Origin: Flexithrix dorotheae DSM 6795
Lineage (GTDB): Bacteria > Bacteroidota > Bacteroidia > Cytophagales > Flammeovirgaceae
Assembly (NCBI RefSeq): GCF_000379765.1
Contig: NZ_KB903431.1
Coordinates: forward strand, 573,788 to 637,787
DNA: 64,000 bases
Reading direction: 5' to 3'
Positions 57,277 to 62,372 of this stretch are shown here, in pieces; position 1 is the stretch's first letter, and every line of letters begins with the position of its first letter. The notes beneath the pieces are model-generated. The model worked only from the letters and a program-made list of their open reading frames with translations, did not search any database and was not told where the DNA came from. The translations under genes and the position numbers were made by a program.

Positions 57277-59565
57277 ATGTCAAATTTTTTGATCCGTTAT
57301 TACCTAATTTGTATTTGTTTTTTTAGTTCATTTAGCCTTTCTGCACAAGATTCTGTATCAGATGCTGATTTACTTTTTGAAAATAATGAATTAGGAAAAG
57401 CACTCAATCTGTATACTTCTTTACTTCAGACCAATCCTGAAAATTCTTATCTAAGTTACAAGGTAGGGGTTTGTTATTTATTTTCCCAAAACCACAAAAC
57501 AGAGGCTTTACCATATATCTACAAGGCGGCTGAAGCCCGGGACAATGGAGATTCCCAGATTCCTGTTGATGTTTATTATTATCTGGGAAAAGTATTGCAC
57601 TATAATCGAAATTTTGAGCTGGCTTTTAATGTCGGTTTCAACAAATACCGGGAAGAAGCCATATTAAATAGGCTGGATACCCTGTCGGATGCTAAATTTA
57701 TCGAGGCAACCAGGATGATTAGAGTTTGTAACAACGGGAATGATATTTTAAAAAATTACAGGCTTAAAGATGTAAAGGTGGAAACCTTTCCTTTTCCAAT
57801 CAATACTTCTTATAACGATGCCTATCCAATAATTCCGGGAAATGGAAAAACGCTTTTATTAAGTTCCAATAGGCCTATTGACGAGTTTAATTTAATTATT
57901 GGTGAGGATTATGTTTTTCTTCCCGAAAAATTGGAAAACAAAACTCAATTTGCCTTCCAAAGCCAATGGAATGAATCAGAAAATGAATGGAATTTTCCTT
58001 ATGTTGAATTTTCTGGGGGTAAAATTGTAAAATCCTACTCCCTTACAAATAATGGAAATGAAATTTTATTGGGGATAGGCAACAGCGAGGATGATATAAA
58101 ACTATATTCTTCGGTACTCAAAAAAGGGAAATGGAGTATCCCTAAACTGCTTAGCCCAGTGATCAATATACCGGGGAGCACCATAATGGGTGGGTGTTTT
58201 GCCTCGGGGGGAAAAGAATTATTTTTTTCAAGTAATAGGCCGGGCGGCTATGGCGGGTTTGATTTGTATCACAGTGTGAAGGCAGAAAATGGGGAATGGT
58301 CCTCTCCAGTTAATCTGGGTGATGTGATTAATACTCCATTCGATGAAATTACGCCATTTTTACAACCCGGTTCAAGAGAACTGTATTTTAGTTCGGATGG
58401 GCACTATACCATGGGCTATCAGGATATTTTTGTTTCCAAACAATTTGGAAACTCCTGGGAACCGCCTAGAAACATGGGTTTTCCTATAAATAGTGCTTAT
58501 GATGACATTTGTTATAACAGGTCCGGTGATGGAGAGCAGGAATATTTTTCATCGAATAGAAAAGGAATAGATGGATTGAGAACTTTTGGCGGATTTGAAA
58601 TATTAAAAATTGAAAGAACCCGGGAAAAGATGCCTTTGGCCATGGTTAGTGGAAAGATTAAAATATTAAACGGGGACAAAACAATGCCTGTTAATCTTAA
58701 AGTAAGGGAAAAAGATAAAACCGGGTATCAATATTTTGTGTTCGATCCCAGAGGAAAAGAAGGGGAATATTTTATGATTTTGCCAACCAATAAAAACTAT
58801 TCCCTCGATATCATTTCACCAATTTATGAAAGTGCCGGGCTCGATATCAATATTCCGAAGGATACTTATCAGTTTGAGTTTAATGTGGAAATCCGGATTG
58901 ATACCATTAATATATTTGATAAACCGATAGGTGAAGAATTGGTAATTAGTGATTATAAGCATTCTTCGATTAACATAAATGACAATGCTTCCTTGGAAGA
59001 AAGAATTAAAGAAATTCGATATGATGCACTGGTGGCCATAATGAGTAAAATGACAGAGTATACCCAAAAATCTGCTCTGGAGGGTTTGGCCGGATTGGAA
59101 GAAAAAGTAGAATATGTGATAAAGGAAAAGGAAAAAGAAACTGATGATTACTACAATACACTGGTGGGCGTGTTCGATGAGGCTGTTCGTAAAAAGGAAA
59201 AGGAAGTGTATTGGGATTTAAATAAAATCATCAAAAACAGTAACCAAAGCCTTGTACAGTTATTTGAGTATGAGAACTCCCAACCTTTGGTGGAGCAGGT
59301 AATTACTTTTAAAAAGAGGGAAAGAGATATTTCAAATAGAATTGGGACTGATTTAATGCACATATGCAAAGTATTAAATAGTAATCCTGAACTAAGGTTA
59401 CATCTAAGATATTTGGGAGATGGTACGAAAAAGATTGTGGAGGAAAGGAAGGAAAATATTATCAAGTTTTTGGAAGAAAATGGAGCCCTGAAAAGCAGGA
59501 TTGAATATTTTGTGATTCATCAGGAAAATGACAGGGACGAAAAACTTGAAATAAAACTTTTCTGA
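57277..59565 (+). CDS. TPR/WD40-like propeller protein with a degenerate OmpA-like C-terminal domain
   Basis: The 762-residue protein has a signal peptide (ending LSAQ, about residue 24) and TPR-like helices (about 28-150: LLFENNELGKALNLYTSLLQ). A propeller of PD40-type repeats follows (about 180-450), with LFFSSNRPGGYGGFDLYHS and LYFSSDGHYTMGYQDIFVSK. The final 75 residues (ELRLHLRYLGDGTKKIVEERK then IIKFLEENGALKSRIEYFV) match the core of an OmpA peptidoglycan-binding domain in helix and strand order. The usual T-D and R residues of the binding site are not clear, so binding may be lost. The architecture resembles PorE-type proteins of the T9SS. It is followed after 139 bp by the YfiR-like gene. 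Confidence 0.75.
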   Translation: MSNFLIRYYLICICFFSSFSLSAQDSVSDADLLFENNELGKALNLYTSLLQTNPENSYLSYKVGVCYLFSQNHKTEALPYIYKAAEARDNGDSQIPVDVYYYLGKVLHYNRNFELAFNVGFNKYREEAILNRLDTLSDAKFIEATRMIRVCNNGNDILKNYRLKDVKVETFPFPINTSYNDAYPIIPGNGKTLLLSSNRPIDEFNLIIGEDYVFLPEKLENKTQFAFQSQWNESENEWNFPYVEFSGGKIVKSYSLTNNGNEILLGIGNSEDDIKLYSSVLKKGKWSIPKLLSPVINIPGSTIMGGCFASGGKELFFSSNRPGGYGGFDLYHSVKAENGEWSSPVNLGDVINTPFDEITPFLQPGSRELYFSSDGHYTMGYQDIFVSKQFGNSWEPPRNMGFPINSAYDDICYNRSGDGEQEYFSSNRKGIDGLRTFGGFEILKIERTREKMPLAMVSGKIKILNGDKTMPVNLKVREKDKTGYQYFVFDPRGKEGEYFMILPTNKNYSLDIISPIYESAGLDINIPKDTYQFEFNVEIRIDTINIFDKPIGEELVISDYKHSSININDNASLEERIKEIRYDALVAIMSKMTEYTQKSALEGLAGLEEKVEYVIKEKEKETDDYYNTLVGVFDEAVRKKEKEVYWDLNKIIKNSNQSLVQLFEYENSQPLVEQVITFKKRERDISNRIGTDLMHICKVLNSNPELRLHLRYLGDGTKKIVEERKENIIKFLEENGALKSRIEYFVIHQENDRDEKLEIKLF

Positions 59566-59704
59566 TTTAAATTAAAATTAACCGGCCTATTCTATTGGCC
59601 TAACTAAAACATGGGTATGTGGTGTCTTTGATTAATAGTGCTTTTTGGGAAATTACCATACTTTAATAAACTGATAAGAAACAATTAATCCTATTTTTTA
59701 ATAC

Positions 59705-60256
59705 GTGAAGGTGTATAGATTTTTTATTGTTATATTTTTTACAACTGTCTTTCTTGGCCAGTCAAAATCAGCAAAGGCGCAATATACTGAATATGAAATC
59801 AAAGGGGCGATGGTATATACTTTTGCTAAATTTGTGACCTGGCCCAAAAATATTTTAAACAGAAGTAAAGTTTTGGTTCTTGGAATTTTAGGGGACGATC
59901 CATTTGGGCAGCATATAGACAGAATTATTAAAAACCGAAAAGCCAACGGGCTTTATATTGAAATCAAAAGGGGGAAAACCATAAAGGACTTAAAAGGTTC
60001 ACATATTTTGTTTATTTGTAATTCTGAAGAAACAGGAATTGAATCCATCATCGATGAATATAAATCTAAATATATTCTCACCATTGGGGATGGAATCGAT
60101 GATTTTTGTAAGTTGGGAGGAATTTTTAATATTGAATATAATGACGGACAACCCGTCTTTTATATTAATCTTGAGGCCGCTTCAAAAGCAGGGCTTATTA
60201 TCGATACCAGATTATTACAGTTAGCAGAAGGTTTTGTAATTTCAGATGCTGAATAA
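59705..60256 (+). CDS. Periplasmic YfiR family protein
   Basis: YfiR proteins (DUF4154) act in the periplasm as repressors or modulators of a membrane partner. This 183-residue protein has a signal peptide (ending SAKAQ, residue 26) and the conserved start EYEIKGAMVYTFAKFVTWPKN. The rest, VLVLGILGDDPFGQHIDRII, HILFICNSEETGIESIID and GIFNIEYNDGQPVFYINLEAA..AGLIIDTRLLQLAE, matches the family through to the end. The start codon is GTG at 59705. It overlaps the next gene (histidine kinase) by 11 bp, so the two are translationally coupled. By analogy with YfiR-YfiN, it may control the kinase. Confidence 0.92.
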   Translation: MKVYRFFIVIFFTTVFLGQSKSAKAQYTEYEIKGAMVYTFAKFVTWPKNILNRSKVLVLGILGDDPFGQHIDRIIKNRKANGLYIEIKRGKTIKDLKGSHILFICNSEETGIESIIDEYKSKYILTIGDGIDDFCKLGGIFNIEYNDGQPVFYINLEAASKAGLIIDTRLLQLAEGFVISDAE

Positions 60257-62372
60257 ATTATTTAAAAAATTACCCATTAAATATAAACTGGTTTTTGTTA
60301 TTCTAACAATAAGCCTGTTATCCTTTTTCGTATCATTTTCCATTTTTATCGTTTACGATTTTTATTCTTTTCATTCAAAACTGCACAAGGAAATTACCCA
60401 GTTAGGTGAGCTAATTGGAAATAACAATGCTGTTTTTGCCAATATGAGGGGAATTATCGCGAAAGAATCTGCCCAGCAAAATCTTTATAATGTACTGCCT
60501 TCTACCGCTCATATTCAATATGGGAGTATTTTTGATCAGAATAAGGAAATTCAGGCTTATTACGATAGAAATTTTCAGGATAGTTCTCTTTTGAATTCCA
60601 CTCCTGATAATCGATCTAAAAATCCTCAAACGGAGAAATCTGATAATTTACTTGATTTATTGCAATTGGATGAGTTTGATGGAGAAATAGGAGGAATGTA
60701 CAGTACCAAACTGGAAATGGTGCTGGATTCCAGTGATTTTAAACCTGTTTATAAAGCGGACATTCAGGAAAATAGCAAAAGAACTGGCCTTTTTTTCGAT
60801 TATATCCATATGTTTTTTATTGAAGGCCATATGGATGTTTTCCATCCTATTGTGGACCCTGATGATGAAAACAGGATATTGGCTACAGTATTTTTACGGT
60901 CTGATTTGTCTCCTTCTTATGAGCGATATTCCCAATATCTCAAAATCGTTTCAATTATATTCCTAATTACATTTGCTGTAATCTATTTACTTACCTTGTT
61001 TGTGCAGAAAAGTATTTCCAAGCCAATTTCCGAACTTACAAATGTGACTTTGAAAATTGCTAAAAACAATGATTATTCTTATCGTGTGCAGGAAGAAGGT
61101 AAGGATGAAGTTGCTTTGCTGGCCAATAGTTTCAATGAAATGATTGCCAAAATTGAAACTCAAAATGTGGAGTTGGTAAAAGCAAAGGACAGGGCAGAAT
61201 CTCTGGCGAATGCAAAAGCTCAGTTTTTATCCAACATGACACATGAAATAAGAACGCCTTTAAATGGTGTGATTGGCATGACGGATATTTTATTGGGTAC
61301 CAAGCTGGATGAAAAGCAGCAGGAATTTTTGGGCATTGTAAAATTTTCTGCAAAAAACCTGATGGTCATTATTAATGATGTATTGGATATTTCAAAAATC
61401 AATGCAGGGAAAATGACTTTCGAACAGGAAGTGCTGGATGTAAATCATTTGCTGAAAACCATTATTGCTGGAAATAGGGGTGAAGCTGATAAAAAAGGTT
61501 TGAAGGTGACTTTAGATGTTTCGGATGAAATTCCCAAAAATCTTCTTGGTGATTCAGTGAGGTTATCTCAAATTGTACTTAACCTTTTCACAAATGCGAT
61601 AAAATTTACCATACACGGAGGAATTGTTATTGGTAATAAGTTAATTGAGAAGACGGAAAAAGAAGCTTTAGTGCGGTTCTATGTAAAAGACTCGGGGGTG
61701 GGCATTGCCCGAGAAAATTTCGATCTTGTTTTTTCAGAGTTTTCTCAGGAAAGAGGTGATACTACCCGGAAATTTGGAGGAACAGGACTGGGTTTATCTA
61801 TTTGTAAAAAATTGGTTGAAATGCAGGGAGGAAAAATGTTTTTGGAAAGTCAGCTGGGTAATGGGAGTACTTTCTCATTTGAACTGAAATTTAAAATTAA
61901 TCAGGAAGAGGAAATAACAAGTTTAAAAACTCCTGAGGAAAGTCTTCATAATGGAATCAGTCAGGAGAATAATCAAAAAGTTGTTCTTTTAGCGGAAGAT
62001 AATGAAGTAAATCAAATGGTGGTGGAAGAGCTTTTGGGCCAGTGGCAATTTAATGTGGAGATAGCAGAAAATGGACAAGAGGCAGTGGATATGTTAACCG
62101 AAAAGCATTACGATCTAATCCTGATGGATGTACATATGCCTGAGCTAGATGGTTATGGAGCCACTAAAATGATCCGCGAAGAAATGTCTTCCCCTAAAAA
62201 AGATATTCCCATAATTGCCATGACTGCTGCCGCTATGGATGGAGAATCTGATAAATGCCTGGCTGCCGGGATGAATGACTATATCTCCAAACCTTTCGAT
62301 AAAAATATACTTTACGAAAAAATCGTACGGCTAATTGTAAATAATGAAAGTACAAAAAAAGCCGAAAATTGA
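60246..62372 (+). CDS. Membrane hybrid histidine kinase with HAMP and receiver domains
   Basis: The 708-residue protein has two membrane helices (about 15-36 and 231-253) flanking a 195-residue periplasmic domain that resembles the CHASE8 domain of YfiN-type proteins. A HAMP domain (about 255-307) and a short coiled coil follow. His333 lies in FLSNMTHEIRTPLNG. The ATPase domain includes VKDSGVGIARENFDLVFSEFSQ and GGTGLGLSICKKLVE. A C-terminal receiver has LLAEDNEVNQMVVEELL and the phospho-acceptor Asp628 in LILMDVHMPELDG. It should autophosphorylate and pass the phosphate to its own receiver, then to an unseen partner (perhaps an HPt protein). It overlaps the YfiR-like gene, implying functional coupling. 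Confidence 0.93.
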   Translation: MLNKLFKKLPIKYKLVFVILTISLLSFFVSFSIFIVYDFYSFHSKLHKEITQLGELIGNNNAVFANMRGIIAKESAQQNLYNVLPSTAHIQYGSIFDQNKEIQAYYDRNFQDSSLLNSTPDNRSKNPQTEKSDNLLDLLQLDEFDGEIGGMYSTKLEMVLDSSDFKPVYKADIQENSKRTGLFFDYIHMFFIEGHMDVFHPIVDPDDENRILATVFLRSDLSPSYERYSQYLKIVSIIFLITFAVIYLLTLFVQKSISKPISELTNVTLKIAKNNDYSYRVQEEGKDEVALLANSFNEMIAKIETQNVELVKAKDRAESLANAKAQFLSNMTHEIRTPLNGVIGMTDILLGTKLDEKQQEFLGIVKFSAKNLMVIINDVLDISKINAGKMTFEQEVLDVNHLLKTIIAGNRGEADKKGLKVTLDVSDEIPKNLLGDSVRLSQIVLNLFTNAIKFTIHGGIVIGNKLIEKTEKEALVRFYVKDSGVGIARENFDLVFSEFSQERGDTTRKFGGTGLGLSICKKLVEMQGGKMFLESQLGNGSTFSFELKFKINQEEEITSLKTPEESLHNGISQENNQKVVLLAEDNEVNQMVVEELLGQWQFNVEIAENGQEAVDMLTEKHYDLILMDVHMPELDGYGATKMIREEMSSPKKDIPIIAMTAAAMDGESDKCLAAGMNDYISKPFDKNILYEKIVRLIVNNESTKKAEN

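Follow-up and report, generated by a model that had tools for sequence, protein, structure and literature searches.

A gene set for a TPR-PD40-OmpA-like protein, YfiR and a hybrid histidine kinase in Flexithrix dorotheae and other Bacteroidota

Genes and domains at the locus

Here we describe three consecutive genes on the plus strand of the window, by which we mean the whole stretch of 64,000 nucleotides of Flexithrix dorotheae DSM 6795 DNA that was analysed. They encode, in order, a secreted protein that we call P1, a YfiR protein and a membrane hybrid histidine kinase. A preliminary description had assigned these domains by inspection and had read the set as a counterpart of YfiB-YfiR-YfiN with a kinase as output. 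The gene set is confirmed by the list of open reading frames (ORFs), and its domain make-up by Pfam together with profile and fold comparisons; the Yfi-like interpretation is partly supported. The features are as follows.

57277..59565, plus strand: gene 1 (P1), 762 aa; secreted TPR-PD40-OmpA-like protein, signal sequence and no lipobox by eye
57364..57756, plus strand: TPR-like helical region of P1, residues 30-160; TPR_16 at E 3e-4 (below cut-off), TPR matches in the PDB, helices in the AF2 model
57769..58626, plus strand: PD40 beta-propeller of P1, residues 165-450; PF07676 above cut-off, AF2 model
58636..58974, plus strand: beta-rich region of P1, residues 454-566; strands in the AF2 model
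58987..59235, plus strand: helical stretch of P1, residues 571-653; partly low confidence, kept within the family
59263..59562, plus strand: divergent OmpA-like domain of P1, residues 663-762; hhalign, MotY/Pal matches in the PDB, motif table
59705..60256, plus strand: gene 2 (YfiR, DUF4154), 183 aa, GTG start, predicted periplasmic; PF13689
60246..62372, plus strand: gene 3 (membrane hybrid histidine kinase), 708 aa
60354..60911, plus strand: kinase periplasmic domain, about residues 37-222; divergent, apparently CHASE8/extracytoplasmic-PAS-like
60582..60776, plus strand: insert in the kinase periplasmic domain, about residues 113-177; mostly low confidence
61005..61157, plus strand: HAMP, PF00672 above cut-off
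61212..61409, plus strand: HisKA, PF00512 above cut-off; phospho-acceptor His333 by motif
61548..61895, plus strand: HATPase_c, PF02518 above cut-off
61983..62324, plus strand: receiver, PF00072 (Response_reg) above cut-off; Asp628 by motif LMDVHMP

The kinase ATG lies at 60246 and the YfiR stop codon ends at 60256, which bears out the reported 11 bp overlap of the last two genes. P1 ends 139 bp before YfiR begins, so that co-transcription of the two is at most putative, a point against the mechanism that we favour below.

The second gene is a genuine YfiR, as shown by its match to PF13689 (DUF4154, YfiR/HmsC-like; 118.9 bits, E 2.4e-34) and by profile matches to YfiR chains of Pseudomonas aeruginosa (E 8.4e-9). 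Its score against NF053591 (YfiR_like_TOL0243), 95.8 bits, is under the curated cut-off of 125. Passages of Malone et al. (PMC3375315) assign Phe162 and Leu183 of P. aeruginosa YfiR to YfiN binding. The window YfiR has Phe and Leu aligned with these two residues, in favour of a Yfi-like contact with the kinase; it has Asn aligned with Cys152, a partner of a structural disulphide in P. aeruginosa, which counts against one.

P1 carries several domains beyond its OmpA-like part. In a fold search with the whole AF2 model, all rows were propellers spanning residues 163-612, short of the OmpA-like domain, with VIA Z up to 19.6 against glycosidase-type propellers. Residues 454-566 are presumably carboxypeptidase-regulatory-like, a name that we take over only by analogy with PorE-type proteins. 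The Pfam scan gave no OmpA match in P1, and P1 is not among the 30 matches listed by a genome-wide PF00691 search. Nevertheless, the degenerate OmpA-like domain called in the preliminary description is borne out: aligned by hhalign with 16 OmpA domains of the same genome, the C-terminus reaches a probability of 97.3 (E 1.7e-11; 96.8 for a longer alignment), with four negative controls at 0.1, 0.1, 0.2 and 1.0, and a PDB profile search matches MotY and Pal at P1 profile positions 641-744.

The erosion of this domain is seen in the OmpA motif GHTD...N..LS..RA, whose Asp, Asn and Arg are peptidoglycan-binding residues. Window P1 lacks the full signature: Asp and Arg are aligned, Thr stands in place of Asn and the loop is shortened, in a stretch where the alignment is uncertain. 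With the same uncertainty, none of 17 family P1 proteins has the string, and Arg is aligned in 15 of the 17, Asp in six and Asn in two, a single protein (L082) aligning all three. By comparison, all three residues are present in 9/13 P1-type proteins outside the family and in 9/10 OmpA controls. To judge from these alignments, the peptidoglycan-binding signature appears largely lost in the window's family, and P1 there therefore probably does not read peptidoglycan through its OmpA-like domain. Sensing would more likely fall to the propeller, to the TPR part or to a protein partner.

An observation in its own right concerns the start of P1. At nine Flammeovirga-type loci (L075, L080, L081, L083-L088) the earliest ATG, GTG or TTG comes only where the signal sequence ends or after it, and CTG followed by AAC or AAT stands at the expected position; by sequence, CTG may be the P1 start codon in the genus Flammeovirga.

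Gene 3 has the HisKA, HATPase and receiver domains together with the phospho-acceptor motifs of a hybrid histidine kinase, and the Pfam scan found no GGDEF domain beside them. It scores 128.3 bits against NF053592 ('HK_near_YfiR_like'), under the cut-off of 194, and the match is split around the insert. The preliminary description had called the periplasmic part CHASE8-like by eye. On the window protein Pfam gives no match to CHASE8 (PF17152, cut-off 27 bits) up to E 1. Among the 16 family kinases that stand in triads, three are above the cut-off (G009 at 30.0, G017 at 28.1 and G010 at 26.8 bits, the last counted as 27 with its neighbours), eight fall short of it with E values of 1.3e-4 to 0.04, and five are unmatched at E 1. 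The second YfiR-linked kinase of the F. dorotheae genome reaches 41.6 bits.

Profile and fold comparisons place the domain more closely. Periplasmic profiles of window-type and Flammeovirga-type kinases match with a probability of 99.5 (two negative controls, 0.2), whereas YfiR-linked kinases without P1 match window-type profiles at only 74.8, over 35 columns; the link to CHASE8 therefore runs through the Flammeovirga-type orthologues. The AF2 model of the domain has a mean pLDDT of 75, with values below 50 at residues 113-151 and 172-177, inside the insert, which is shorter or absent in Flammeovirga-type and P1-less kinases. By VIA Z the model resembles the extracytoplasmic PAS domains of WalK (10.8), CitA (10.6), a LapD orthologue (10.6) and DcuS (10.3); the top row of the search is an integrative WalK-YycH model (Z 14.1). 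A PDB profile search with the kinase N-terminus matched HAMP chains only. The CHASE8-like fold proposed in the preliminary description thus has support through orthologues and fold, the window protein itself giving no Pfam match, and the models suggest a divergent, insert-bearing CHASE8/extracytoplasmic-PAS-like domain. At the YfiN 'AAVVF' site, E. coli DgcN has AAVVF, the window kinase NNNAVFA and a Flammeovirga-type kinase NDASVEL; the patch is not clearly kept in the window, which counts against a YfiN-like mode of binding.

On the output side, the gene downstream of the window kinase lies on the other strand and is presumably prfC, to judge from its appearance. The genome has eight HPt matches, two of them in ORFs of 122-123 aa, with stand-alone HPt proteins at G000 C8:52839 and C1:401146. 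At three related loci (L260, L302 and L256) an HPt gene comes next after the kinase, at 40.4, 28.2 and 36.6 bits (cut-off 24.6); no P1 was found at the L256 locus, and a near-identical HPt gene stands in L267, a close copy of L260. Separately, L241 and L263 have a STAS gene next after P1, YfiR and the hybrid kinase, with L244 a close copy of L241.

Conservation of the gene set in the window's family

The search for relatives covered 58 genomes, counting that of the window, and 18 of these are members of the window's family; the named counterparts of the family loci belong to Flammeovirga and Flammeovirgaceae. In 17 of the 18, YfiR is immediately preceded, on the same strand, by the best P1 relative, an adjacency that is more than chance, and the eighteenth (G007) lacks YfiR as well as any close P1. 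The next gene after YfiR is a kinase with the CHASE-TM-HAMP profile in 16/17, as the preliminary description had expected of related genomes. The exception, G006, keeps P1 and YfiR and has no adjacent kinase, the ORF at that place being thioredoxin-like by eye. A receiver is also present in 15 of the 16 triad kinases (the remaining one, in L082, is cut by a contig end), and YfiR and kinase overlap by 4-35 bp in 15/16 triads, as measured on mechanically called, first-start ORFs. The idea that such a triad is limited to one genome is rejected, as similar triads occur in the family and in other Bacteroidota.

Could the linkage be neutral synteny in a slowly rearranging region? Flammeovirga-type loci do have similarly sized neighbours in common on either flank, which speaks for it. 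However, the gene set reappears in other lineages of Bacteroidota and the overlap of the YfiR stop with the kinase start is conserved, and we hold neutral synteny to be highly improbable.

Outside the window, some 44 kb further downstream, the F. dorotheae genome carries another pair of YfiR and kinase genes (G000 C2:677527-679953; L012:5528-7954). The kinase of this second pair is without a receiver and the pair has no P1 neighbour, a point against the mechanism that we favour below.

Upstream partners of YfiR beyond the family

A profile of the P1 C-terminus was run on 241 genomes of the order. Among the matches listed, the 15 strongest full-length ones (>200 bits) are all family loci; the other two family loci are weak (G011 at 76 and G008 at 64 bits), level with G163 from another family (68 bits). 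Six places from other families were examined among the weaker matches listed (G092 left out): two adjoin YfiR (G163 and G081) and four do not, which counts against the mechanism we favour. G163 has a short P1 with OmpA above cut-off, a YfiR and a hybrid kinase, split between two contigs whose ends are identical over 99 bases. In G081 an OmpA-type gene adjoins YfiR, the ORF after YfiR is TPR-like by eye and there is no adjacent kinase. In G026 and G044 a PD40-OmpA gene precedes YfiR at a distance of 117 and 108 bp, respectively, and the ORF that comes next has the opposite orientation. G081, G026 and G044 each have an OmpA-type gene beside YfiR and no neighbouring kinase, again a point against the mechanism we favour.

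A wider, named survey took 12 family YfiRs as queries and the best 80 of 122 relatives, a sample that leans toward the window's group, with 9/80 loci from the window's own family. Neighbours were labelled by pooling same-strand, domain-bearing ORFs, called mechanically, near the start or end of YfiR, using profiles built in this analysis; a Pfam check of chosen proteins agreed for TonB receptors (5/5) and OmpA (5/5). Upstream of YfiR, these best 80 of 122 have a TonB-dependent receptor in 41 cases, a P1-like gene in 19, another gene in 19 and a contig end in one. Downstream, they have a kinase without receiver in 40, a kinase with receiver in 23, the CHASE-TM-HAMP profile only in nine, none of these in seven and a contig end in one, so that a kinase follows YfiR in 63/80.

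Of the 19 P1-like loci, 14 are followed by a hybrid kinase, three by a kinase, one by a CHASE-only ORF and one by none of these; in the three kinase cases and the CHASE-only case the contig ends after that ORF. For the 41 TonB-receptor loci the figures are five hybrid, 28 kinase, four CHASE-only, three none and one contig end. TonB-dependent receptors stand directly upstream of YfiR, mostly with a kinase next, in several phyla (for example L240, L246 and L265). Of the 19 P1-like loci, ten do not belong to the window's family. In ten named loci beyond the family, YfiR stands between a P1-like gene and a downstream kinase, whole or truncated at a contig end; L241/L244 and L260/L267 among them are close pairs.

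The TonB-dependent receptors, a transporter class, upstream of YfiR at 41 of these loci speak for a different view of YfiR, namely as a ligand-binding co-receptor that activates the kinase in the manner of a periplasmic binding protein, with the upstream outer-envelope protein serving ligand uptake or handling. The YfiR fold is likened to an ABC-type domain of Streptococcus pneumoniae in part of one structural paper (PMC4655355). However, the characterised YfiR represses YfiN, with genetic evidence of direct contact, according to passages of Malone et al. (PMC3375315), and the Pfam scan finds no transporter domain in P1. We consider the co-receptor view quite unlikely.

On a quick YfiR tree of 91 rows, 64 of them labelled (the loci of G163, G081, G026 and G044 left out), 23 P1 rows and 41 TonB-receptor rows are separated by one change, with support 89; shuffled labels gave a mean of 19 changes, and 0/500 were as low as one. 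Two doubtfully titled bins aside, every P1 row is from Bacteroidota, so that lineage and partner are confounded. The label of hybrid versus plain kinase takes nine changes on the same tree.

These results also weigh on the reading in which YfiR and the kinase form the signalling pair and P1 is a passenger or a regulated envelope protein, an accessory of outer-membrane integrity or secretion that makes no contact with YfiR. The best NCBIfam matches of P1, far under cut-off, are the CHU_0125 and PorE types, and deletion of chu_0125 impairs outer-membrane integrity, according to part of that report (PMC5891637); the second, P1-less pair of the genome and the four of six P1 C-terminus relatives apart from YfiR point the same way. 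On the other hand, the P1-YfiR linkage persists without an adjacent kinase in G006 and G081, G007 is without both YfiR and a close P1, and on the quick tree the P1-linked YfiRs are all on one side of a single branch. We judge a passenger role for P1 to be unlikely, less strongly so than for the co-receptor view.

Three further observations came from the survey. The bins titled Thalassobius (L230) and Thalassovita (L231) carry loci of the window's Bacteroidota family, and their titles look wrong. In L139, L141, L142 and L145 the YfiR domains lie in ORFs of 622-738 aa, one of which also matches the kinase profile; these are possible fusions. In L091, L094, L097, L107, L113 and L128, YfiR is followed by GAF proteins, some with HAMP or PAS, in which Pfam finds no catalytic output at E 1e-5.

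Proposed mechanism and comparison with known systems

By analogy with the Yfi system, we favour, with somewhat more than even confidence, an envelope-spanning module of the YfiR/CHASE8 type with a phosphorelay output, in which YfiR would hold the kinase and P1 would release it. The domains of the three proteins, the conserved linkage of their genes and the HPt genes at some related loci are observed; the steps that follow are proposed. Periplasmic YfiR, as we infer, would bind the hybrid kinase at its CHASE8/PAS-like domain and keep the kinase in one state. P1, presumably located in the outer envelope, would fill the place of Pseudomonas YfiB: in some envelope or cargo state, the putative signal, it would bind YfiR and so free the kinase. 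Phosphate would then pass from His333 to Asp628, on to an HPt protein and finally to an unlinked regulator.

More broadly, YfiR-kinase systems across bacteria may be three-part relays whose outer partner is exchangeable. In most lineages a TonB-dependent receptor would fill this place; a single replacement in Bacteroidota would have brought in a TPR-PD40-OmpA protein instead and so produced P1-YfiR-hybrid kinase-HPt, a continuous phosphorelay starting at the outer envelope. Within the window's family, the OmpA domain would later have shifted from peptidoglycan binding to protein contact. We put this forward tentatively, as a possibility somewhat short of an even chance. If true, it would extend the Yfi principle, in which an outer-envelope protein competes for a periplasmic repressor, to the two-component systems of Bacteroidota. 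It would also give YfiR-kinase pairs without YfiB a concrete outer partner, and would suggest that in several phyla TonB-dependent receptors use YfiR for signalling.

The locus shares with YfiBNR/HmsCDE of P. aeruginosa, E. coli and Yersinia a YfiR homologue, HAMP and probably a CHASE8-like periplasmic domain in the membrane partner, and an OmpA-fold protein in the set, and the yfiR-dgcN overlap of E. coli is likewise 11 bp. It differs in its output, a histidine kinase with receiver instead of GGDEF, and in gene order (P1-R-kinase against R-N-B in E. coli). Its OmpA-fold protein is large, with TPR and PD40 parts and an apparently eroded peptidoglycan signature. The likening of P1 to YfiB in the preliminary description holds for the OmpA fold; the missing lipobox (by eye), the CHU_0125/PorE-like build and the TonB-dependent receptor found in its place at 41 of the best 80 of 122 loci speak against it, and P1 as a plain YfiB orthologue is rejected.

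The exchange of GGDEF for a kinase is seen in the window as described and is not new. In passages of Malone et al. (2012, PMC3375315), distant YfiR-YfiN systems often have GGDEF swapped for other outputs, sensor kinases included, with one hybrid kinase output in Thauera and Rhodothermus among the distant homologues, and almost all divergent systems are without a yfiB homologue. NCBIfam in turn holds a 'YfiR-like protein-associated' kinase family. The YfiR-kinase half of the locus is thus already known: like these divergent systems and the NF053591/NF053592 pair, it sets YfiR beside a YfiN-type sensor with a histidine kinase output, although the window proteins score under both NCBIfam cut-offs. 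Section 12 of Malone et al. (PMC3375315), unlike the loci described here, does not mention a P1-type or TonB-receptor partner, and no linkage of either to YfiR was found in the open-access literature by title and start of abstract. As far as our searches go, three things are new: the P1-type partner, the fact that in our sample it occupies one branch as against TonB receptors, and the HPt-bearing loci.

In overall architecture P1 resembles CHU_0125/PorE-type proteins, CHU_0125 being described as TPR, PD40 and OmpA_C-like in part of PMC5891637. P1 scores far under both family cut-offs (165.7 versus 620 and 94.7 versus 600 bits) and, unlike those proteins, has a degenerate OmpA domain and is linked to YfiR. 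Finally, the window kinase has neither the protease nor the c-di-GMP domain (by Pfam) of the LapD-LapG system, to which Malone et al. (PMC3375315) liken YfiR-YfiN in the passages drawn on here; like that system, the proposed module would have a periplasmic protein act on the periplasmic domain of a membrane sensor, and the model of that domain in the window kinase resembles a LapD orthologue.
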